Below are positions 9,879 to 21,266 of a stretch of DNA of 64,000 bases, piece after piece. The position numbers and the translations under genes are program-made. Every line of letters begins with the position of its first letter. Position 1 is the first letter of the stretch. The notes beneath the pieces were generated by a model that worked only from the letters and a program-made list of their open reading frames with translations, had not been told where the DNA came from and made no database searches. Source of the DNA: Achromobacter insuavis (GTDB lineage Bacteria; Pseudomonadota; Gammaproteobacteria; Burkholderiales; Burkholderiaceae_B); the NCBI RefSeq assembly GCF_902859645.1, contig NZ_CADIJR010000004.1, positions 1-64,000 of the forward strand, in the 5' to 3' direction.

Positions 9879-12725
9879 ATGAATGCCAGCCGCCCGCAGT
9901 CCGACTCCGCAGAACCCTTGCGTCACGATATCCGGCTGTTAGGCCGAATGCTGGGCGAAGTCATCGCCGAATGCGAAGGCAAACGCGTCTTCGACACCAT
10001 CGAGACCCTGCGCCGCACCGCCGTCAAGTTCCGCCGCGAAGGCAACGCCGCCGACGGCAAGCTGCTGGAGCAGCGCGTCAAGCACCTGCAGGGCAGCGAC
10101 CCCAACTCGGTGGCGCGCGCCTTCAGCTACTTCCTGCACCTGTCGAACATCGCCGAGGACCGCGACCAGAACCGCAGCCAGCGCGCCCGCGCCCTGGCCG
10201 GCGATGCGCCCGCGCGCGGCAGCCTGCGCGACGCGGTGCAGGCCCTGGGCCGCCATGGCGTGACGCCGGCGCGCATCCGCCGCCTGCTGGCCGACGCCTG
10301 CGTCATGCCGGTGCTGACCGCCCACCCCACCGAAGTGCAGCGCAAGAGCACGCTGGACGTGCATCGCGAGATCGCCGCCGCGCTGGCCCAGCGCGACCAG
10401 CCGCTGACGCCGGAGGAACTGACCGAACTCGATGCCGCGCTGCTCGGCCGCGTGGCCACGCTGTGGCAGACGCGCATGCTGCGCTACACCCGCCTGACGG
10501 TGGCCGACGAGATCGAGAACGCGCTGTCGTACTACCGCAGCACCTTCCTGCAGGTCATCCCGCGCGTCTACGGCGACCTGTCCAAGCTGCTCAATCGCGA
10601 CGCCAAGCCCTTCGTTGCCCCGCCCCCGCCGCTCGAGCCGTTCCTGCGCATGGGCAGCTGGATCGGCGGCGACCGCGACGGCAACCCGAACGTCGACGCA
10701 GGCACGCTGGAGCGCGCCCTGCTGCGCCAGGCCACCGTGCTGTTCGAGCACTACCTGCAGGAAGTGCATGCGCTCGGCGCCGAGCTGTCCATCACCACGC
10801 TGCTGATCGCGGTCGACCCGGCGCTGCTGGCGCTGGCCGAACACAGCGGCGACGACTCGCCGCATCGCAGCGACGAGCCCTACCGGCGCGCGCTGGTCGG
10901 CGTCTATGCGCGCCTGGCCGCCACCGCGCTGCGCCTGACCGGCCAGAACCTGGCCCGCCGCAGCACCGTCGCGGCCCAGCCCTACGACACGCCGCAGGAA
11001 TTGTCGGCCGACCTGGCCGTCATCGCCGCGTCGCTGGCCGCGCACCATGGCGCGCCGATCGGCAAGCTGCGCCTGGCCGGCCTGCAGCAGGCGGTCGAAG
11101 TGTTCGGCTTTCACCTCGCCACGGTCGACCTGCGCCAGAGTTCCGACGTGCACGAGCGCGCGCTGGCCGAACTGTTCAGCCGCGCCGGCGCCACCCACGA
11201 GGGCCAGCCGCTGGACTACCTGGCGCTGGACGAGGACGCGCGCGTGGCCCTGTTGCGCGCCGAACTGGCGCAGGCGCGGCCGCTGGCCTCGCCCTGGATC
11301 GCCTACAGCGAGGACACCACGCGCGAACTGGCGGTGCTGCGCGCCGCCGCCGCCGGCCGCATGCGCTACGGCAAGCAGGCCGTGCGCCAGACCATCGTCT
11401 CGCACACCGAGACCCTGAGCGACCTGCTGGAAGTGATGGTGCTGCAGAAGGAAGCGGGCCTGATCGCGCCCGCCGGCCAGGAGATCGCGCCGGAAGACGG
11501 CCTGATGGTGGTGCCGCTGTTCGAGACCATCCCCGACCTGCAGCGCGGCGCCGACATCATGGCCGCCTGGCTCGATCTGCCCGAGATCCGCGAACGCGTG
11601 AAGCGGGCGCAGAACGGCGCCCAGGAAGTCATGCTGGGCTATTCCGACAGCAACAAGGATGGCGGCTTCCTGACCTCCAACTGGTCGCTCTACCAGGCCG
11701 AACGCGCGCTGGTCGACGTGTTCTCCAGCCGCCACGTGCGGCTGCGCCTGTTCCATGGCCGCGGCGGCTCGGTCGGCCGCGGCGGCGGTTCCAGCTTCGA
11801 CGCCATCCTGGCACAGCCGCCCGGCACCGTGGCCGGCCAGATCCGCCTGACCGAACAGGGCGAGGTCATCCAGAGCAAGTACAAGGATGCCGAGGTCGGC
11901 CGCTGGCACCTGGAGCTGCTGGTCGCCGCCACGCTCGAATCCAGCCTGGCGCCGCGCGCCGAGGCCACCAGCGCGGAAGACGCGCACATGGCGCATCATG
12001 GCCCGGCCATGTCGTTCATGTCCGAGACCGCGCAGCGCAGCTACCGCGGCCTGGTCTACGACACGCCGCGCTTCGCCGAATACTTCTTCGCCGCCACCCC
12101 GATCGCCGAGATCGCCGGCCTGAACATCGGCTCGCGCCCGGCCTCGCGCAAGAAGGGCCAGCGCATCGAAGACCTGCGCGCCATTCCGTGGGGTTTCTCC
12201 TGGGCCCAGTGCCGCCTGATGCTGACCGGCTGGTACGGCATGGGGTCGGCCATCGAGGCCTACCTGGAGACTGGCGCGCCGGGGGCGCCGCGCTCGCAGC
12301 GCGGCCGCCTGGCCCAGCTGCGCGAGATGGCCCAGGACTGGCCGGCCTTCCGCACGCTGCTGTCCAACATGGAGATGGTGCTGGCCAAGTCCGACCTGGC
12401 CATCGCCGCGCGCTACGCGCAACTGGTGCCGCAACGCGCGCTGCGCGAGAAGATCTTCGGCATGATCAGCGCCGAGCATGGCCGCACCCTGGCCATGCTC
12501 AAGCTGCTGACGCGGCGCGAGCTGCTGGCCGACAACCCGTCGCTGCAGGCTTCGCTGCGCGAGCGCTTCGCCTACATCGACCCGCTCAACTACCTGCAGG
12601 TCGACCTGATCCGCCGCCACCGCGCGGCGCAGAAGTCGCCCGCCGCCGAGGCCGATGAACGCGTGCAACGCGCGATCCACCTGACCATCAACGGCATCGC
12701 CGCCGGGTTGCGCAATTCGGGGTAA
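9879..12725 (+). CDS. ppc: Phosphoenolpyruvate carboxylase
   Basis: 948-aa enzyme that carboxylates phosphoenolpyruvate to oxaloacetate, refilling the TCA cycle. Seen: the catalytic His region [12 protein letters not shown] (about residue 148), [25 protein letters not shown], and the glycine-rich loop [13 protein letters not shown] carrying the second catalytic signature; the C-terminus ends in [12 protein letters not shown] as in bacterial enzymes. The start ATG 9879 gives normal length. It stands alone, transcribed away from queC. A weak GC hairpin (12743-12767) with no T-run follows the stop. Confidence 0.97.
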
Positions 12726-13072
12726 GGCAAAAGGGTAACGCCGCGCCGGGGCCTCGCGCTCCGGCGCGCGCTTTGCCCCATTCCATCGATTCGACCCTCC
12801 ATGCAGAACGCGACGCGGCCTCGGCAGGCGGCCTTGCGCGCGTTCCACACTGTCCACCTGACGAACGCCCCAAAACGGCCATTTGTCCACCCCCGGCAAC
12901 TTTTAGTACTATCTTCGTCAGAAATTCTATATACGCACAAATGTTCGTATATAGAACACAACGATTTTTCTGGCCCGCGCACAGGAAGACACCGACGGAA
13001 GAGACAGATCGCAGTTCCCTGGTTCCGCCTGTGCCGCCCGCCGCGCGCGCCCCGTAAGGCAAGCGAACCCTC
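12726..13072. other. 347-bp intergenic region upstream of the hydroxyacyl-CoA dehydrogenase gene
   Basis: The left part contains a GC hairpin past ppc (12743-12749 with 12761-12767). The right part is AT-rich (12895-12965) with TATATA -10-like stretches and the twin operator described separately. The stretch 12965-13072 is the untranslated leader of the gene at 13073. No gene seen. Confidence 0.5.
12924..12957. promoter_or_regulatory. Twin 15-bp operator, PcaR/IclR type
   Basis: Two pseudo-palindromes, ATTCTATATACGCAC (12924-12938) and GTTCGTATATAGAAC (12943-12957). They are near reverse complements of each other and start 19 bp apart. The second fits GTTC-N7-GAAC, the same form and the same 19-bp offset as the pair at 17353-17386 between the IclR gene and pcaI. 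The site lies about 116 bp upstream of the gene at 13073. Confidence 0.65.
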
Positions 13073-14008
13073 ATGGATACTCCCCTGCAGAATCTGGCCG
13101 TCATCGGCGCCGGCGCCATGGGCAGCGGCATCGCCGCGCTCTTCGCCTCGAAGGGATTGGACGTGGTCCTGGTTGATCCGATGGACGGCGCCCTGGATCG
13201 CGCCCGCGCCGTCATCGAACGCCAATTGAACGTCTACGCCCCCGGCCAGGTCGACGCCGTGATGCAACGCATCCGCATGGCGCCCGGCCTGGACGCGGCG
13301 GCGGCCTGTGACCTCGTCATCGAGGCGGTGCCCGAGAACCTGGAACTCAAGCGCGGCCTGTTCGCCCAGCTCGACGCGCTGTGCAAGCCCGAAGCGATCT
13401 TCGCCACCAACACCTCGGGCCTGTCGATCAACGCCATCGCCAGTGCTGTCGCGCGCCGCGACCGCTTCGTCGGCACGCACTTCTTCACCCCCGCCGACGT
13501 CATCCCGCTGGTCGAAGTGGTGCGCAACGACGCCACCTCGGAAGACACCGTGGCGCGCGTCATGGCGACGCTGCGCCTGGGCGGCAAGCGCCCGGTGCTG
13601 GTGCGCCAGGACATCCCCGGCTTCATCGCCAACCGCATCCAGCACGCCCTGGCGCGCGAGGCCATCTCGCTGCTGGAAAAGGGCGTGGCCAGCGCCGAAG
13701 ACATCGACGAAGTGGTCAAGTGGAGCCTGGGCATCCGCCTGGCGCTGTCCGGTCCGCTGGAACAGCGCGACATGAACGGCATTGACGTCCACTACGCCAT
13801 CGCCAGCTATCTCTACAAAGACCTGGAAAACCGCACCGAGCCGTCCGACCTGCTCAAGAGCAAGGTCGAGAACGGCCAGCTCGGCGCCAAGAGCGGCCAG
13901 GGGTTCTATACCTGGAGCCCCGAGCGCCGCGAACAGGTGCTGCGCGAGAAGAGCGCGGCGCTGGGCGAGCTGGCCGCGTGGCTCAACGCCAAGGCCGGCG
14001 ATTCCTGA
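13073..14008 (+). CDS. 3-hydroxyacyl-CoA dehydrogenase (HCDH family)
   Basis: 311-aa NAD-dependent dehydrogenase with N-terminal Rossmann motif GAGAMGSG (about residues 12-19). The catalytic-domain segments are EAVPENLELKRGLFAQLD, TNTSGLSI and GTHFFTPADVIPLVEVV, the last carrying the catalytic His with Glu, followed by a C-terminal dimerisation domain (PGFIANRIQHAL). Family members oxidise L-3-hydroxyacyl-CoA to 3-oxoacyl-CoA or act on carnitine or hydroxybutyryl-CoA. It is the first gene after the twin PcaR-like operator, so it probably belongs to the same regulon as pcaIJ. A role on a 3-hydroxyadipyl-CoA-like substrate is a guess. Confidence 0.85.
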   Translation: MDTPLQNLAVIGAGAMGSGIAALFASKGLDVVLVDPMDGALDRARAVIERQLNVYAPGQVDAVMQRIRMAPGLDAAAACDLVIEAVPENLELKRGLFAQLDALCKPEAIFATNTSGLSINAIASAVARRDRFVGTHFFTPADVIPLVEVVRNDATSEDTVARVMATLRLGGKRPVLVRQDIPGFIANRIQHALAREAISLLEKGVASAEDIDEVVKWSLGIRLALSGPLEQRDMNGIDVHYAIASYLYKDLENRTEPSDLLKSKVENGQLGAKSGQGFYTWSPERREQVLREKSAALGELAAWLNAKAGDS

Positions 14009-14190
14009 CGCCGCCGCAACACCGAAACCCTACACCATAAGGCGCGCGGCGATCCGTCCGACGCGCCAGCGGGCCACGAGCCCAACCACGCAAAGAAACC
14101 GACCGTCCCATCCGCTTCGCGCCCTTATCCGGCGCACGGCGGCGCAAGACACAAGAGCAATACGCCTTACCGGAGTTCGTAGGAGGCACC

Positions 14191-15531
14191 ATGAATAAAT
14201 TGGCATCTTTTTTCACTGAGCTGATGCGCAAGTATCTGCCCGATCCCTTTGTCTTCGCGATCGCGCTGACCTTGCTCACCGTACTGCTGGCCATGGGCAT
14301 CGAAGGCCAGGGCATCGGCGACGTGACCCGCGCCTGGGGCAAGGGCTTCTGGAGCCTGCTGGCCTTCACCACCCAGATGGCCGTGATCCTGGCCATGGGC
14401 TACGTGCTGGCCACCGCGCCGCTGACCGACCGCCTGCTCAACCGCATCGTCAGCCACGTGCACAAGCCGCACACCGCCATCATCGTCGCCACGCTGGTCG
14501 GCGGCATCGGCAGCTACCTGAACTGGGGCTTCGGCCTGGTCATCGGCGGCATCGTCGCCAAGAAGCTGGCGCTCAAGGTCAAGGGCGTGCACTACCCGCT
14601 GATCATCGCCGCGGCCTACAGCGGCTTCACCATGTACGGCCTGGGCCTGTCGGCCAGCATCCCGGTGCTGGTGGCCACGCCTGGCCACCCCACCGCCAAG
14701 CAGATGGGCACCATTCCGCTGACGGAAACCATCTTCTCGGTGCCGATGCTGATCACCAGCCTGGTGATCATCGTGACGCTGCCGCTGCTGAACGCCTGGC
14801 TGCATCCGAAGAAAGGCGAAAAGATCGTCGAAGTGGACCCGGCCATCGACCGCGACACCACCGCCGCCGGCGCCGCCGAGGACCTGCTCGAAAAGGGCAC
14901 GCTGGCCTCCAAGCTGAACAACAGCCGCCTGCTGAGCCTGCTGATCGGCGCGCTGGGCGTGGCCTACGTCGTCTTCCACTTCATGGACGGCGGCTCGCTC
15001 GACCTGAACCTGATCAACTTCATCATCCTGTTCCTGGGCATCATCCTGCTGGGCACGCCGGCCTCCTACGTGGCCAAGCTGACCGAAGGCATCAAGACGA
15101 TCTCCGGGATCATCCTGCAATATCCGTTCTACGCCGGCATCATGGCCATCATGGCCGCCTCGGGCCTGGTGACCACCATCTCCAAGGTCTTCGTCGACGT
15201 CGCCACGCCGGCCACGCTGCCGTTCTGGGGCCTGATCAGCTCGTTCGTCATCAACTTCTTCGCGCCCTCGGCCGGCGGCCACTGGGTCATCCAGGGCCCG
15301 TTCATGATCGACGCCGCCCGCGAAATCGGCAGCGCGCTCAACCAGACCACCATGGCCGTGATGCTGGGCAACGCCTGGAACGACCTGGTGCAGCCCTTCT
15401 GGATCCTGCCGGCGCTGGCGCTGTCCAAGCTCAAGCTGCGCGACGTGATGGGCTACACGGTCATCATGATGCTGTGGGTCGGCGTGATCCACATCACCGC
15501 CGTCCTGGCGTGGGGCTATCTGACGCATTAA
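14191..15531 (+). CDS. Short-chain fatty acid transporter, AtoE family
   Basis: 446-aa inner-membrane carrier with about ten hydrophobic segments. It resembles E. coli AtoE (short-chain fatty acid uptake): start FFTELMRKYLPDPFVFAIALTLL, NWGFGLVIGGI, and the family-typical SAGGHWVIQGP followed by NQTTMAVMLGNAWNDLVQPFW. A clear Shine-Dalgarno AGGAGG precedes ATG 14191. It follows the hydroxyacyl-CoA dehydrogenase by 182 bp on the same strand. In this context it may import a short acid such as 3-oxoadipate rather than acetoacetate (inference). Confidence 0.88.
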   Translation: MNKLASFFTELMRKYLPDPFVFAIALTLLTVLLAMGIEGQGIGDVTRAWGKGFWSLLAFTTQMAVILAMGYVLATAPLTDRLLNRIVSHVHKPHTAIIVATLVGGIGSYLNWGFGLVIGGIVAKKLALKVKGVHYPLIIAAAYSGFTMYGLGLSASIPVLVATPGHPTAKQMGTIPLTETIFSVPMLITSLVIIVTLPLLNAWLHPKKGEKIVEVDPAIDRDTTAAGAAEDLLEKGTLASKLNNSRLLSLLIGALGVAYVVFHFMDGGSLDLNLINFIILFLGIILLGTPASYVAKLTEGIKTISGIILQYPFYAGIMAIMAASGLVTTISKVFVDVATPATLPFWGLISSFVINFFAPSAGGHWVIQGPFMIDAAREIGSALNQTTMAVMLGNAWNDLVQPFWILPALALSKLKLRDVMGYTVIMMLWVGVIHITAVLAWGYLTH

Positions 15532-15569
15532 GCCCCCCCGTACGCGCTTGCGCGCGCCCCCCAGGGGGC

Positions 15570-15607
15570 GACACCTGCAGACCGGCAGAGCCGGATCTGG
15601 CGGTGTC
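15570..15607. repeat. Intergenic stem-loop, REP-like
   Basis: GACACC (15570-15575) pairs with GGTGTC (15602-15607). An inner stem CAGACCGG / CCGGATCTG (15578-15585 / 15591-15599) is nested inside. Upstream is a C-run/G-run pair (15558-15568). It sits between the AtoE gene and the SDR gene, with no T-run. The compound shape resembles the dispersed intergenic repeats of Burkholderiales, but only one copy is seen here. Confidence 0.4.
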
Positions 15608-15686
15608 CTCGATGGGGAGGCAGATGGAATGTTGAGAGGCGGTGTTCTTGAGGACGTCGCGATTGAGAACTGAATTGGGAGCTGAG

Positions 15687-16415
15687 ATGAGCAAACCTAC
15701 CGCGTACCTGGTGACCGGCGGCAGCGCCGGGATCGGCGCCGCCATCATCCGCATGCTGCTGGATGCCGGGCACAAAGTCGTCAACATCGACTACCGCCTG
15801 CCCGAGCATCCGCCGGCGGGGCTGGTGTCGTACCAGGCCGACCTGACCGACGAGGCGCGCACCAAGGCAGTGGCCGCGGAAGTGACCGCGGCCTACGACA
15901 TCGTCGGCCTGGTCAACAACGCCGGCGCCACGCGTCCCGGCACCGCCGACACGGCCACGCTGGCCGACCTGGACTACGTGGTCAACCTGCATCTGCGCAC
16001 CGCGCTGATCCTGGTGCAGGCCGCGTTGCCGGCGATGCGCGCGGCCGGCTTCGGCCGCATCGTCAACATGTCGTCGCGCGCCGCGCTGGGCAAGCCGGAC
16101 CGCGTGGTCTATTCGGCCACCAAGGCCGGCCTGGTCGGGCTGACGCGCACGCTGGCCATGGAACTGGGCGGCGACGGCATCACCGTCAACGCCATCGGCC
16201 CGGGCCCCATCGCCACCGACCTGTTCACCAAGAGCAATCCGGCCGGCGCGCCGCAGACCGAGCGCATCATCAACAGCATCGTGGTCAAGCGCCTGGGCAC
16301 GCCCGAGGACGTGGCGCGCGCCGCCATGTTCTTCCTGTCGCCCGACAACGGCTTCGTCACCGGCCAGATGCTGTATGTGTGCGGCGGCACGACGCTGGGC
16401 GTCGCCCCCATCTGA
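15687..16415 (+). CDS. SDR-family oxidoreductase
   Basis: 242-aa classical short-chain dehydrogenase: cofactor motif TGGSAGIGAA (about residues 9-18), NNAG, catalytic Ser in NMSSRAALG and YSATK (Tyr-Lys). The C-terminal RLGTPEDVARAAMFFLSPDNGFVTGQ is FabG-like. The ATG at 15687 follows a GAGCTGAG Shine-Dalgarno-like stretch. It is convergent with the IclR gene (50 bp apart) and probably co-transcribed with, or following, the AtoE gene. The substrate is unknown; context suggests a hydroxy acid or lactone intermediate. Confidence 0.85.
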   Translation: MSKPTAYLVTGGSAGIGAAIIRMLLDAGHKVVNIDYRLPEHPPAGLVSYQADLTDEARTKAVAAEVTAAYDIVGLVNNAGATRPGTADTATLADLDYVVNLHLRTALILVQAALPAMRAAGFGRIVNMSSRAALGKPDRVVYSATKAGLVGLTRTLAMELGGDGITVNAIGPGPIATDLFTKSNPAGAPQTERIINSIVVKRLGTPEDVARAAMFFLSPDNGFVTGQMLYVCGGTTLGVAPI

Positions 16416-16465
16416 GGCCCGCCGCGATGGCCGACCATTTTTCAGCCCACGCCCTTCGGCGCCGC

Positions 16466-17248
16466 CTAGCGGCGCAGCAGCGCGTGGTTGATCTGGTCGG
16501 CGGCGCGGCGCAGCGGCGGCAGGAAGGTCGCCAGCATCTCCTCGCGCGAGAAGCGGTTGGCATGGCCGCTGACGTTCATCGCGGCGATCACCCGGCCGCT
16601 GCGGTCGACGATCGGCACCGCCACGGACTGCAGGCCCGGCTCCAGTTCCTGCGCCACGCAGGCGTAGCCGTCGGCGCGCACGCCGGCCAGGATGGCCTTG
16701 AGCGCGCCGATGTCGGTCACGGTGTCCTTGGTGTAGGCCTGGATCTGGCTCATCGCCAGCACCCGGTCCAGTTCGGCCGCGGGCAGGCCCGCCAGCAGCA
16801 CGCGGCCCATCGACGTCACCCAGGCCGGCAGGCGGCTGCCCACAGCCAGGTTGATGGTCATGACCTTGTGCGTCGACAGCCGCAGGATGTAGACGATGTC
16901 GGCGCCTTCCAGCACCGACACCGAGCACGACTCGCGCGTCAGCTCGGCCACTTCTTCCATGTAGGGCAGCGCCAGGTTCCACAGCGGCGTGCCCGACAGG
17001 TAGGCGTAGCCCAGTTCGAGGATGCGCGGGGTCAGCGCGAACTTGCGGTCCTCGACCGTGACGTAGCCCAGGTGCTCCAGCGTCAGCAGGATGCGGCGCG
17101 CGCCGGCGCGGGTCAGGCCGGTCACGGCCGCGACCTCGGACAGCGTCATCTGGGAACGATCCGGGCCGAACGCCCGGATCACGGACAGGCCGCGCGCAAA
17201 AGATTGAACGTAGCTGTCGCTGGGTTGCTGGGTTGCTTGCTCGGCCAT
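16466..17248 (-). CDS. IclR-family regulator, PcaR/PobR-like
   Basis: 260-aa IclR protein. The N-terminal winged helix (SFARGLSVIRAFG... MTLSEVAAVTGLTRAGARRILLTLEHLGYV) and effector domain (GESCS-like TRESCSVSVLEGADIVYILR, LAVGSRLPAWVTSMGRVLLAGL) closely resemble the PcaR/PobR/CatR group that senses aromatic-pathway acids such as 3-oxoadipate or muconate. ATG 17248 (MAEQAT) is preferred over an in-frame ATG 96 bases upstream, because the extra residues are unlike the family. It is divergent from pcaI, with two GTTC-N7-GAAC sites between. Likely ligand: 3-oxoadipate or a related dicarboxylate (inference from family). Confidence 0.9.
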   Translation of the reverse strand: MAEQATQQPSDSYVQSFARGLSVIRAFGPDRSQMTLSEVAAVTGLTRAGARRILLTLEHLGYVTVEDRKFALTPRILELGYAYLSGTPLWNLALPYMEEVAELTRESCSVSVLEGADIVYILRLSTHKVMTINLAVGSRLPAWVTSMGRVLLAGLPAAELDRVLAMSQIQAYTKDTVTDIGALKAILAGVRADGYACVAQELEPGLQSVAVPIVDRSGRVIAAMNVSGHANRFSREEMLATFLPPLRRAADQINHALLRR

Positions 17249-17352
17249 CCGTCTACCGCGAGAAAAAACGTTGCCGCTGCCGGCAACCCTGAAACGGGGA
17301 GGATCGCACCGCGCCGGCTTGCCTTGACGGTCGACTATCCCCATGAAACGAT

Positions 17353-17386
17353 GTTCTTCAGAAGAACGAAAGTTCTAATTAAGAAC
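17353..17386. promoter_or_regulatory. Twin 15-bp operator between the PcaR-like gene and pcaI
   Basis: GTTCTTCAGAAGAAC (17353-17367) and GTTCTAATTAAGAAC (17372-17386) are both GTTC-N7-GAAC near-perfect palindromes with starts 19 bp apart. They lie in the 170-bp divergent gap, 33 bp before pcaI. The architecture is the same as at 12924-12957. Confidence 0.75.
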
Positions 17387-17418: not shown

Positions 17419-18108
17419 ATGATTTCTAAGCTTGTTGCAAGCGCGGCGGCCGCCCTCGCCGACGTCCCGGACGGCGCCACCGTCATGATCGGCGGCTTCG
17501 GCACCGCCGGCCAGCCCATGGAACTGATCGACGCCCTGCTCGAGCAAGGCGCCAAGGATCTAGTCATCATCAACAACAACGCCGGCAACGGCACCACCGG
17601 CCTGGCCGCCCTGCTGGGCGCCAACCGCGTGCGCAAGATCATCTGCTCGTTCCCGCGCCAGGTGGACTCGCAGATCTTCGACGGCCTGTACCGCAGCGGC
17701 AAGATCGAGCTCGAACTGGTGCCCCAGGGCAACCTGGCCGAGCGCATCCGCGCCGCCGGCGCCGGCATCGGCGCGTTCTTCTCGCCCACCGGCTACGGCA
17801 CCCCGCTGGCCGACGGCAAGGAAACCCGCGAGATCAACGGCCGCCAGTACGTGCTGGAATATCCGTTGCACGCCGACTACGCGCTCATCAAGGCCGAGCG
17901 CGGCGACCGCTGGGGCAACCTGGTGTACCGCAAGACCGCGCGCAACTTCGGCCCCATCATGGCCAGCGCCGCGCGCGTGGCCGTGGCGCAGGTGCGTGAA
18001 GTCGTCGAACTGGGCGCCCTCGATCCGGAAACCGTCGTCACCCCCGGCATCTTCGTGCAGCGCGTCGTGCAGATCGACGCCGCCCAGGCCGCCAAGGAGC
18101 AGCAATGA
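17419..18108 (+). CDS. pcaI: 3-oxoadipate CoA-transferase subunit A
   Basis: 229-aa alpha subunit. With PcaJ it moves CoA from succinyl-CoA to 3-oxoadipate, the penultimate step of the beta-ketoadipate pathway. It matches Pseudomonas PcaI segments: GGFGTAGQPMELIDALLEQGAKDL, NNNAGNG, CSFPRQVDSQIFDGLY, ELELVPQGNLAERIRAAGAGIGAF, TPGIFVQRVV. Its stop overlaps the pcaJ start (ATGA). The ATG at 17419 lies directly after the operator pair. A seven-codon frame (17406-17429) overlaps the start but looks incidental. Confidence 0.95.
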   Translation: MISKLVASAAAALADVPDGATVMIGGFGTAGQPMELIDALLEQGAKDLVIINNNAGNGTTGLAALLGANRVRKIICSFPRQVDSQIFDGLYRSGKIELELVPQGNLAERIRAAGAGIGAFFSPTGYGTPLADGKETREINGRQYVLEYPLHADYALIKAERGDRWGNLVYRKTARNFGPIMASAARVAVAQVREVVELGALDPETVVTPGIFVQRVVQIDAAQAAKEQQ

Positions 18109-18749
18109 GCACCAAACTGACCCGCGACCAGATCGCCGCCCGCGTCGCCCAGGACATTCCTGAAGGCGCCTACGTCAACCTCGGCATCGGCCTGCCGACG
18201 CTGGTGGCCAACCACCTGCCGGCCGACCGCGAAGTCATCCTGCACACCGAGAACGGCATGCTGGGCATGGGCCCGGCGCCGGCCAAGGGCGAGGAAGACT
18301 ACGACCTCATCAACGCCGGCAAGCAGCCCGTCACCGAACTGCCCGGCTGCTCGTTCTTCCATCACGCCGACTCGTTCGCGATGATGCGCGGCGGCCACCT
18401 GGACATCTGCGTGCTGGGCGCCTTCCAGGTGTCGCGGCACGGCGACCTGGCCAACTGGCACACCGGCGCGCCCGACGCCATCCCCGCCGTGGGCGGCGCG
18501 ATGGACCTGGCCATCGGCGCCAAGGACGTCTTCGTCATGATGGAGCTGCAGACCCGTGAAGGCCAGAGCAAGCTGGTCGACGTCTGCACCTATCCGCTGA
18601 CCGGCGTGCGCTGCGTGTCGCGCGTGTACACCGACGTGGCCGTGTTCGACATCCGCGCCGACGGCGTCACGGTGATCGACATGTTCGGCGAAACCACCGC
18701 CGACGAGCTGCTGCGCCTGACCGGCCTGCCGCTGAAGTTTTCCAACTGA
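18105..18749 (+). CDS. pcaJ: 3-oxoadipate CoA-transferase subunit B
   Basis: 214-aa beta subunit carrying the catalytic glutamate in HTENGMLGMGPAP (about residue 50), with the glycine-rich NLGIGLPTLVANHLP near the N-terminus, as in PcaJ/CatJ and SCOT beta subunits. It overlaps pcaI by 4 bp, so the two subunits are coupled. A stem-loop follows before catC. Confidence 0.95.
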   Translation: MSTKLTRDQIAARVAQDIPEGAYVNLGIGLPTLVANHLPADREVILHTENGMLGMGPAPAKGEEDYDLINAGKQPVTELPGCSFFHHADSFAMMRGGHLDICVLGAFQVSRHGDLANWHTGAPDAIPAVGGAMDLAIGAKDVFVMMELQTREGQSKLVDVCTYPLTGVRCVSRVYTDVAVFDIRADGVTVIDMFGETTADELLRLTGLPLKFSN

Positions 18750-18802: not shown

Positions 18803-19078
18803 ATGTTGTTCATGGTTCAAATGCAGGTCAATCTGCCCGTCGACATGCCGGCGGCTCAAGCCGACAAGCTCAAGGCCGACGAAAAGGCCCTGGCGCAGCA
18901 GCTGCAACGCGACGGCAAGTGGAAGAGCCTGTGGCGCGTCGTCGGCCGCTACGCCAACGTCAGCATCTTCGACGTGCAGGACAACGACGAGCTGCACACG
19001 CTGCTGTCGTCGCTGCCGCTGTTCCCCTACATGGACATCCAGGTGACGGCGCTGGCGCGCCATCCCTCGGCGATCTGA
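18803..19078 (+). CDS. catC: Muconolactone delta-isomerase
   Basis: 91-aa protein of the CatC family, which shifts the double bond of muconolactone to give 3-oxoadipate enol-lactone. Seen: start LFMVQMQVNLPVDMP, then WRVVGRYANVSIFDVQDNDELHTLLSSLPLFPYMDIQVTAL in segments typical of the ferredoxin-like decamer; usual length is about 92-96 aa. RBS CTGGAGAC precedes ATG 18803. The usual partners catA and catB (catechol 1,2-dioxygenase, cycloisomerase) are not in the window, so muconolactone must be made elsewhere, or a related lactone is the substrate. Confidence 0.92.
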   Translation: MLFMVQMQVNLPVDMPAAQADKLKADEKALAQQLQRDGKWKSLWRVVGRYANVSIFDVQDNDELHTLLSSLPLFPYMDIQVTALARHPSAI

Positions 19079-19090
19079 ACGGAGCCGCCC

Positions 19091-19387
19091 ATGCCCTACA
19101 TCATCGAAACCTTCGACAAGCCCGACCACCAGGCCATGCGCCAGCAGCATCGCGCCGCGCATCTGGAATACCTGGACGCCAACAAGCACCTGCTGCTGGC
19201 CTGCGGCGCCAAGCTGCAGGATGACGGCAAGGACCTGGGCGGCGGCCTGTACATCGTCGACCTGGACACGCGCGAGGCCGCGCAGCAGTTCATCGACGCC
19301 GATCCCTTCGCCCAGGCGCAGCTGTTCCAGCGCGTGACCATCACGCGCTGGCGCAAGGCCTACATCGACGGCACCTGCCACCTGTAA
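19091..19387 (+). CDS. YciI-like alpha/beta-barrel protein
   Basis: 98-aa YCII-domain protein. The conserved His in the N-terminal AMRQQHRAAHLEYLDAN and the C-terminal ADPFAQAQLFQRVTITRWRKAY (Asp-Pro-Phe motif) are the hallmarks. YciI-family folds are distantly related to muconolactone isomerase, and some members act as dehydrochlorinases or isomerases in aromatic pathways. It lies 12 bp after catC and before pcaD, so an accessory step on a lactone intermediate is plausible but not shown. Confidence 0.8.
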   Translation: MPYIIETFDKPDHQAMRQQHRAAHLEYLDANKHLLLACGAKLQDDGKDLGGGLYIVDLDTREAAQQFIDADPFAQAQLFQRVTITRWRKAYIDGTCHL

Positions 19388-19442: not shown

Positions 19443-20222
19443 ATGTCTTACGCCGATCTCAGCCAGGCACGGCTGTTCTACGTCATCGATGGCCCCGCCG
19501 ACGCGCCGGTGCTGGTGCTCTCCAATTCGCTGGGCACCAACGCCGACATGTGGGCGCGCCAGGTTCCCGCGCTGAGCAAGCACTTCCGCGTGCTGCGCTA
19601 CGACACCCGCGGCCACGGCAAATCCTCGATCCCCGACGGCGAATACAGCTTCGCGCAGCTGGGCAACGACGTCGCCGAACTGCTGGCGCACCTGGGCATC
19701 GAACGCGCCCACTTCTGCGGCCTGTCGATGGGCGGCCCCACCGGCCTGTGGCTGGCGCTGAACCGGCCCGAGCTGATCGGCAAGCTGATCCTGTGCAACA
19801 CCGCCGCGCGCATCGGCTCGGCCGAAGGCTGGAGCGCCCGCATCGCCGCCGTGGCCGAACAGACGCTGGAAAAGATGGCCCCGACCCTGGTCGAGCGCTG
19901 GCTCACCGACGGCTACCGCGCCGCCGAGCCGGGCCTGTCGCAGGTGCTGGTCGACATGCTGCGCCGCACCTCCGACGCCGGCTACTCGGGCAACTGCGCC
20001 GCGCTGCGCGACGCCGATTTCCGCGAACAGGTGTCGGCCATCAAGGCGCCGACGCTGGTCATCAGCAGCACCCACGACCTGGCCGCCACGCCCGCGCAGG
20101 GCCAGGAACTGGCCGGCGCCATCAACGGCGCGCGCTACCTCGAACTGAACACCTCCCACATCTCCAACTGGGAACAACCGGAAGCCTTCACCCGCGCGGT
20201 GGTCGACTTCCTCGCGGAGTAA
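19443..20222 (+). CDS. pcaD: 3-oxoadipate enol-lactonase
   Basis: 259-aa alpha/beta hydrolase that opens 3-oxoadipate enol-lactone to 3-oxoadipate. Seen: SNSLGTNADMWARQVPALSKHFRVLRYDTRGHGKS, nucleophile elbow GLSMGG (about residues 94-99), acid in STHDLAATP and catalytic His in NTSHISNWEQP. This is strongly PcaD/CatD-like. It follows the YciI-like gene by 55 bp and is 3 bp before the cyclase gene. Confidence 0.94.
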   Translation: MSYADLSQARLFYVIDGPADAPVLVLSNSLGTNADMWARQVPALSKHFRVLRYDTRGHGKSSIPDGEYSFAQLGNDVAELLAHLGIERAHFCGLSMGGPTGLWLALNRPELIGKLILCNTAARIGSAEGWSARIAAVAEQTLEKMAPTLVERWLTDGYRAAEPGLSQVLVDMLRRTSDAGYSGNCAALRDADFREQVSAIKAPTLVISSTHDLAATPAQGQELAGAINGARYLELNTSHISNWEQPEAFTRAVVDFLAE

Positions 20223-20225
20223 GCC

Positions 20226-21266
20226 ATGCAGCGCTGGACCCATCGGCCCGAAGGCTCCAACTGGGGCGACTTCGGACCCGACGACCAACTCGGCCGCCTC
20301 AATCTCATCACCGAAGAGCAGGTCCTGAAAGGCGCGCGTGAAATCCGCGCCGGCAAGACCTTCTGCCTGTCGCTGCCGCTGGACCTGCCCGGCGGCAACG
20401 TGCTCAACCCGCGGCGCCATCCGCCGCAGTTGAGCCCGACCCGGCTGGCCGACACGCCCTACCTGAACTTTCCGCTGCGCAACGTCAACCCGGACGCGGT
20501 CGACGTGCTGAGCGACGACCAGGTGCTGCTGTCGATGCAGTACTCGACGCAATGGGACGCGCTGGCGCACGTCGGCGCGCTGTTCGACGCCGACGGCGAC
20601 GGCAAGCCCGAGCTGCGCTACTACAACGGCTACCAGGCCGGCGTCGACGTCATCGGCCCAGCCGACGGCGACCACACCGGCTGCGGCTGCAACAGCGGCG
20701 GCCCCTCGGCCGCGCTGAAGCTCGGCGTCGAGAACCTGGCGCAGAAAGGCATGCAGGGCCGCGGCGTGCTGCTGGACCTGGCGCGCGACTACGGCCCCGG
20801 CCGCACCCTGATCGGCCACGCCGAGATCCAGCATGTGCTGAAGACGGACGGCATCGAGATCGAGCCCGGCGACATGCTGGTGCTGCGCACCGGCTACGCC
20901 GAAGCCGTGGTCGCCATGGCCGGCAAGCCCGACGCCGAGGTGCTGCACACCTACGGCGCCGCGCTCGACGGCACCGACGCCGCGCTGCTGCAGTGGATCA
21001 CCGACAGCGGCATCGCCGCCATCTGCGCCGACAACTACGCCGTCGAAGCCTATCCCGCGCGCGAGAAGACCGGCCCGCGCGCCATGCTGCCGCTGCACCA
21101 CCACTGCCTGTTCAAGCTGGGCCTGCCTCTGGCCGAGCTGTGGTACCTGAAGGACCTGGCCGAGTGGCTGCGGGCCAACGGCCGCCACCGCTTCATGCTG
21201 ACGGCGCCGCCGCTGCGACTGCCGCACGCGATCGGTTCGCCGGTCACGCCGATCGCCACGGTGTAG
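20226..21266 (+). CDS. Cyclase-family metal-dependent hydrolase
   Basis: 346-aa protein of the cyclase/kynurenine-formamidase-like superfamily, long form. Seen: N-terminal RWTHRPEGSNWGDFGPDDQLGRLNLI, a WDALAHVG segment in place of the usual HxGTHxD metal motif, GRGVLLDLARDYG, GDMLVLRTGY and a late LPLHHHCLFKLGLPLAELW. Members are Zn/Mn hydrolases acting on formamides, lactones or cyclic ketones. It starts 3 bp after pcaD, so it is the last gene of the pca-type operon. It is not a standard beta-ketoadipate enzyme, and its substrate is unknown. Confidence 0.8.
   Translation: MQRWTHRPEGSNWGDFGPDDQLGRLNLITEEQVLKGAREIRAGKTFCLSLPLDLPGGNVLNPRRHPPQLSPTRLADTPYLNFPLRNVNPDAVDVLSDDQVLLSMQYSTQWDALAHVGALFDADGDGKPELRYYNGYQAGVDVIGPADGDHTGCGCNSGGPSAALKLGVENLAQKGMQGRGVLLDLARDYGPGRTLIGHAEIQHVLKTDGIEIEPGDMLVLRTGYAEAVVAMAGKPDAEVLHTYGAALDGTDAALLQWITDSGIAAICADNYAVEAYPAREKTGPRAMLPLHHHCLFKLGLPLAELWYLKDLAEWLRANGRHRFMLTAPPLRLPHAIGSPVTPIATV

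Follow-up and report, generated by a model that had tools for sequence, protein, structure and literature searches.

The 64,000-nucleotide stretch of Achromobacter insuavis DNA analysed here (the window; contig NZ_CADIJR010000004.1) carries a 3-hydroxyacyl-CoA dehydrogenase (HADH) gene, followed by genes for an AtoE-like carrier and a short-chain dehydrogenase/reductase (SDR), and next to these a PcaR-like regulator gene of the IclR family that is divergent from the beta-ketoadipate pathway gene pcaI. One pair of 15-bp sites precedes the HADH gene (pair 1) and a second pair lies between the regulator gene and pcaI (pair 2). The locus thus raises the question of whether a single regulator acts on both units. 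The comparative evidence suggests that it does: the reading in which the PcaR-like protein binds both pairs and represses both units was given a probability of roughly 0.8, and the proposed extension of the regulon to HADH, AtoE and SDR is well supported as one of a known kind.

Form and placement of the paired sites

The original prediction described two pairs of 15-bp sites of the form GTTC-N7-GAAC, one site being degenerate, with starts 19 bp apart in each pair, and this description was confirmed at 12924-12957 and 17353-17386. The left site of pair 1 (ATTCTATATACGCAC) deviates from the pattern at two of the eight defining bases and the right site (GTTCGTATATAGAAC) is perfect, as are both sites of pair 2 (GTTCTTCAGAAGAAC and GTTCTAATTAAGAAC). 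These were the only three perfect matches in the window, where shuffled sequence gave a mean of 0.45 and reached three or more in 1 of 100 shuffles. Sites with one mismatch were not in excess in the window (19 vs 14.6), and perfect single sites stood at background over the genome (36, as against 38 for the reversed control pattern), so that a wider regulon based on single sites was dropped.

The pairs had also been credited with an identical architecture, which holds for the site ends and the 19-bp offset but not for the overall form. Pair 1 is a compound palindrome, TTCTATATACG-N10-CGTATATAGAA, in which the left site is palindromic only with its partner, whereas pair 2 consists of two separate palindromic or near-palindromic 15-mers. 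Similarly, the view that the spacing is hard to explain by chance was borne out in part. At up to two mismatches in 16 positions, the double pattern with a 19-bp offset matched only pairs 1 and 2 in the 6.82-Mb genome (G000), and a pair of this quality arose in 3 of 20000 dinucleotide shuffles of the 347-bp gap between ppc and HADH, but the genome-wide count was at control level (see below). The unlikely feature of pair 1 is its place and its conservation, its number being at background.

Tandem palindromic sites with 18-22 nt between centres were predicted for IclR-family regulators of 94 orthologous groups, as described in the main text of PMC8222616, and the centres at both loci studied here are 19 nt apart. 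Such spacing is a habit of the family, and therefore the 19-bp offset indicates a protein of the IclR type but is not enough to single out one regulator. The same text gives GTNCG-N5-6-CGNAC as the PcaR/PcaU/PobR-type operator form (PMC8222616). The GTTC and GAAC ends of the sites fit this form; the adjoining G and C occur only in the inner half-sites of pair 1 and are absent from its outer half-sites and from pair 2 of the window.

Conservation of the pairs and their association with the regulator

The HADH protein was found at 80 loci, 51 of them at 69% identity or more, and at 48 of these 51 pair 1 was conserved before the HADH-AtoE-SDR unit, the exceptions being L070, L081 and L084. The degenerate ATTC form of the pair 1 site was itself conserved. 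In an alignment of 50 upstream regions (31 effective sequences), scored per 10 bp, conservation was 0.88-0.92 over 12923-12952, compared with 0.15-0.64 over 12793-12882 and 0.51 at 12913-12922. A family sample of 151 genomes contained HADH (at least 68% identity) in 25 genomes, the regulator (at least 74%) in 25 and both in 24. Pair 1 was present before HADH at no more than two mismatches in 21 of the 25 and at three mismatches in G131. A pair lay directly 5' of the regulator gene in all 25 genomes with the regulator, and pcaI was on the other side of it in each of the 10 that were fetched. Absence of the sites before orthologues, chosen beforehand as the outcome that would count against the prediction, was thus not what was found. 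With up to two mismatches allowed, 79 of the 151 genomes had some match to the double pattern, many of these matches being background-like, as in the control counts.

In G160, the right 27 bases of pair 1 stood before HADH, directly after an assembly N. This genome was rejected as a counter-example because the N cuts the pair, and it was counted neither as lost nor as fully present. The motif of pair 1 occurred on two contigs of G160, near position 6640 of L118, before HADH and after the N, and at 8241 of L119, behind ppc and before a cysteine-dioxygenase-like gene; the duplication may reflect an assembly break at the palindrome or a real rearrangement. In G023 (C6, 206867-207796), the HADH match reads one internal TGA and the operator pair is kept.

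The regulator scored 352.5 bits against TIGR02431 (curated cut-off 284.75), which places it in the PcaR/PcaU/PobR subfamily, and it was the only match in its own genome at E<=1e-55, with 17 of 49 first-look candidates scored. Its gene adjoins beta-ketoadipate genes, being divergent from pcaI in the window and in 10 fetched loci with a regulator of at least 74% identity. Pseudomonas putida PcaR (site GTTCGATAATCGCAC; structures 8eju and 8ejv) falls in the same subfamily by the name of the TIGR02431 model, and phmmer aligned the window regulator to 8eju with an E value of 2.7e-59. PcaR of P. putida acts at 15-bp sites at a pca promoter and can repress or activate according to site position, in the available text of PMC12455658. 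In the window, by contrast, the sites come in pairs with a 19-bp offset, and the proposed control extends to a second unit, HADH-AtoE-SDR.

The prediction that one regulator controls both units was supported by retention of the pairs when the units are unlinked, by their joint loss with the regulator, and by adjacency of HADH and the regulator gene in other genera. The HADH operon was on a different contig from the regulator-pcaIJ locus in G175, G116 and G157, and the two were more than 1.6 Mb apart on the single contig of G138; each locus had a pair in all four genomes. The gene order in the unlinked lineage was HADH-AtoE-SDR-catC-yciI-pcaD-cyclase (L078, L079, L080 and L121, of which L079 and L121 are the same contig), and at L131 it was pcaI-pcaJ-SDR-TctC-pcaF-HADH-regulator, with pcaF and the regulator above the curated cut-offs. 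In these relatives, then, HADH and genes of the pathway belong to a single run of genes. Moreover, in all six genomes of two other genera (g38 and g10) with an HADH at 55-60% identity, the gene immediately preceding the regulator gene was HADH, and the four that were fetched all had a pair at no more than two mismatches before pcaI.

Nearly all genomes with HADH at 68% identity or more also had the regulator (24 of 25), and the remaining one, G077, lacked the regulator and both operators. The catabolic genes of G077 are collinear, with the regulator missing between SDR and pcaI, and no pair was found at up to three mismatches near HADH or pcaI. In comparison with L066, 16 of 34 bases were unchanged in each operator stretch, and the flanking DNA matched at 31/45 and 32/45 positions around the HADH operator and at 25/45 and 32/42 around the pca operator. 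Of the 34 operator bases, 29-34 were retained in three relatives that have the regulator. Among 15 genomes of the same genus, the regulator was present in 11, HADH in 12 and neither in 3 (two of them less than 80% complete), G077 being the only one with HADH and without the regulator.

Operator pairs were also seen in other settings. In L132 (6295 and 10254) and L133 (6723 and 10674), from two additional genomes, operator pairs stand on both sides of a PcaR-like gene, about 4 kb from each other, and the outer one is close to other genes. A perfect pair occurred at 6983 of L134 (G081), in a 14-kb stretch where no query gene was found.

Contrary evidence and rival explanations

Several observations weigh against control of both units by the PcaR-like protein. 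Counted over the genome, the double pattern was not in excess of its control, the same pattern read backwards (2 vs 1 at up to two mismatches, 6 vs 6 at up to three). The conserved island fades slowly on the gene side, 12953-13002 downstream of pair 1 still scoring 0.68-0.81. In the family sample, G077 and G093 were without pair 1 before HADH, and L081 and L084 had no pair directly before the gene. G093, which is the same contig as L070 and is also represented by L116, keeps both the regulator and HADH, so that the regulator is found once without a pair before HADH; neither AtoE nor SDR occurs in this stretch, and a tRNA scan of L070 found none. Joint loss of the regulator and the operators was seen in one genome, G077, where the left pca flank was little better preserved than the operator. 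In the genus studied here, the likeness of the two pairs is mostly limited to the GTTC and GAAC ends, the cores being different, and overall symmetry is seen in pair 1 but not in pair 2. The promoter assignments come from visual inspection, and the pca -10 box is weak. Finally, the only pcaF match in the genome at E<=1e-120 (C7; L135 1492-2697) is without an operator pair, the best candidate in the 4.2-kb stretch having six mismatches. Consequently, pcaF was dropped as a further target, and the two-pair regulon falls short of the whole pathway.

Pair 1 could be a true IclR-type operator that is bound by a different IclR-family protein encoded elsewhere. The genome has 46 IclR-type helix-turn-helix matches, and in the main text of PMC8222616 both this type of site and a tandem spacing of 18-22 nt occur throughout the family, two points that also count against the PcaR-like protein; the differing cores of pairs 1 and 2 would likewise be accounted for. 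However, both operators were eroded in G077, where it is the PcaR-like regulator that is absent, and the genome gave no second match to this regulator at E<=1e-55 among the 17 of 49 candidates that were scored. In the unlinked lineage, tblastn found no IclR gene within L121 or L078-L080, and the gene divergent from HADH in L121 (13302-13826) encodes a FecI-like sigma factor. In g38 and g10, moreover, the gene directly behind HADH is the regulator gene itself. A separate IclR-family protein was accordingly judged improbable.

The palindrome at 12925-12956 might instead work at the RNA level, as a hairpin of the HADH leader serving as an attenuator or stability element, since a transcript starting near 12919 would include it. 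Folding of the 154-nt leader was better than that of shuffled versions (z -3.54). Among 19 distinct versions of the 34-mer, changes on both sides occurred at 5 of 14 paired positions, a value reached by none of 500 shuffles, with seven cells being G-U, and palindromes slid along the sequence as controls scored lower on every measure. A DNA palindrome would give equal compensation, however, so that the arm changes do not distinguish the two readings, and the loosest pair, columns 10 and 25, is broken in 7 of the 19 sequences. No terminator-like site was found in 12700-13100 and no Rfam match at the gathering threshold in the palindrome region. The site ends and 19-bp phase fit pair 2 and the IclR site class, and the palindrome was lost where a DNA-binding regulator was lost (G077), which makes the hairpin very unlikely. 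That pair 1 resembles an operator by chance, or is a relic that no longer functions, was considered scarcely credible. In its favour, two mismatches occur in one site, the number of double-pattern matches does not exceed background, and HADH is kept without the pair in G077 and G093; the rarity in gap shuffles, the presence at 48 of 51 loci, the conserved ATTC form and the compensated changes all argue against this reading. The PcaR-like protein thus remains the preferred regulator of both pairs.

Genes, promoters and proposed function

Table 1. Features of the locus, with positions counted from the first nucleotide of the window
Feature	Position	Strand	Remarks
Candidate HADH operon promoter	12883..12912	+	TTGTCC 12883-12888, 18-bp spacer, TACTAT 12907-12912; by eye, aligned upstream regions
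Operator pair 1	12924..12957	.	Sites 12924-12938 and 12943-12957; compound palindrome arms 12925-12935/12946-12956
HADH, 3-hydroxyacyl-CoA dehydrogenase gene	13073..14008	+	311 aa
AtoE-like short-chain fatty acid transporter	14191..15531	+	SCFA_trans
SDR, short-chain dehydrogenase/reductase	15687..16415	+	ATG 15687 chosen; mechanical open reading frame starts at GTG 15642
IclR-family regulator, PcaR/PcaU/PobR subfamily	16466..17248	-	ATG 17248 chosen; mechanical open reading frame starts at 17344
Candidate pcaI promoter	17324..17352	+	TTGACG 17324-17329, 17-bp spacer, weak -10 AACGAT 17347-17352; by eye, aligned relatives
Operator pair 2	17353..17386	.	Sites 17353-17367 and 17372-17386
pcaI-pcaJ, 3-oxoacid CoA-transferase subunits A and B	17419..18749	+	A 17419-18108, B 18105-18749
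Muconolactone isomerase, catC-like	18803..19078	+	PF02426, 141 bits
YciI-like protein	19091..19387	+	PF03795, 75.6 bits
pcaD, 3-oxoadipate enol-lactonase	19443..20222	+	TIGR02427, 304.3 bits (cut-off 255.85)
Cyclase-family protein	20226..21266	+	PF04199, 55.2 bits; one PDB relative, 5ibz, uncharacterised

The HADH gene starts 116 bp beyond the end of pair 1, and its nearest named relatives, 97-98% identical, are from Achromobacter. Upstream of the pair, the stretch TTAGTACTAT at 12903-12912 (conservation 0.83 in the 50 aligned regions) reads by eye, together with TTGTCC at 12883 (0.78 over 12883-12892), as a candidate promoter, which would place pair 1 at about +5 to +38. At the candidate pcaI promoter, a TG stands one base before the weak -10 box. 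Both operators thus lie just downstream of a -10-like box, an arrangement that suits repression. An automatic scan reported no promoter in either gap (threshold 9-of-12 on the HADH side) and neither promoters nor terminators in the HADH-AtoE and AtoE-SDR gaps. A possible third site, a three-mismatch match 19 bp upstream of pair 2 in several relatives, was rejected; it aligns on the -10-like stretch ATGAAACGAT and was therefore read as promoter. On the minus strand, a terminator-like hairpin with a T-run occurs at 17270-17287, just upstream of the regulator ATG (2 overlapping hairpins, where shuffles gave 0.5), and is possibly an attenuator of the regulator gene. The presence of muconolactone isomerase, with no ring-cleavage gene beside it, suggests the lower catechol branch.

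In the proposed mechanism, the regulator would bind both 34-bp pairs, most likely as two dimers forming a tetramer on sites about two helical turns apart, and, the pairs being immediately past the -10-like boxes, would block the start of transcription or early elongation. Expression of pcaIJ-catC-yciI-pcaD-cyclase and of HADH-AtoE-SDR, each presumably co-transcribed, would begin jointly once the protein is released by a metabolite of the pathway, beta-ketoadipate or a related C6 dicarboxylate being the probable inducer. Repression would fit the behavior of PcaR in Ralstonia CL21, where pcaR mutants gain fitness in the portion of that study available (PMC12543098).

Judging from its enzyme family and gene company, HADH most likely brings 3-hydroxyadipyl-CoA into the beta-ketoadipate pathway, which it would enter as 3-oxoadipyl-CoA, with AtoE as a carrier. 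A more speculative and rather doubtful suggestion is that the beta-ketoadipate pathway has an undescribed side branch made up of HADH, AtoE, SDR and the cyclase-family protein. AtoE would import 3-hydroxyadipate or its 3,6-lactone (saturated muconolactone), an idea that comes from general chemistry; the cyclase-family enzyme would open the lactone, PcaIJ would add CoA, HADH would oxidise the product to 3-oxoadipyl-CoA, and SDR may serve the other isomer or the free acid. Two Bacillota loci (L085 5944-12871 and L087 5971-10050) have a recurring core of HADH (51-54%), AtoE (69-75%) and a cyclase-family gene, followed in L085 by CoA-transferase subunits, a thiolase and a zinc alcohol dehydrogenase.

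The window HADH is presumably a member of COG1250. In the BoxR regulon, a COG1250 protein is the predicted 3-hydroxyadipyl-CoA dehydrogenase, the same enzyme type at the COG level acting toward 3-oxoadipyl-CoA, but under another regulator and in another pathway, box benzoate degradation, as far as the available text of PMC6449761 goes. The same text mentions in passing that catI and catF of the Comamonadaceae (CoA-transferase and thiolase of the catechol branch) are under an IclR regulator; the likeness lies in the regulator, HADH-AtoE-SDR not being named alongside in that portion (PMC6449761). The main text of PMC8222616 does not contain the words Bordetella, Achromobacter, COG1250 or COG2031, and its supplements may list the HADH-AtoE-SDR regulon. 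None of the titles listed in the literature searches dealt with HADH-AtoE-SDR under PcaR, supplements being outside this search, so that absence from print is not established.

Through the proposed regulon, a dehydrogenase, a carrier and a reductase gain a likely regulator and a link to a defined pathway, and their substrates can therefore be sought among C6 hydroxy- and keto-dicarboxylates. For comparative work, the locus also offers an operator that persists after separation from the gene of its likely regulator and has decayed in a genome without that gene.

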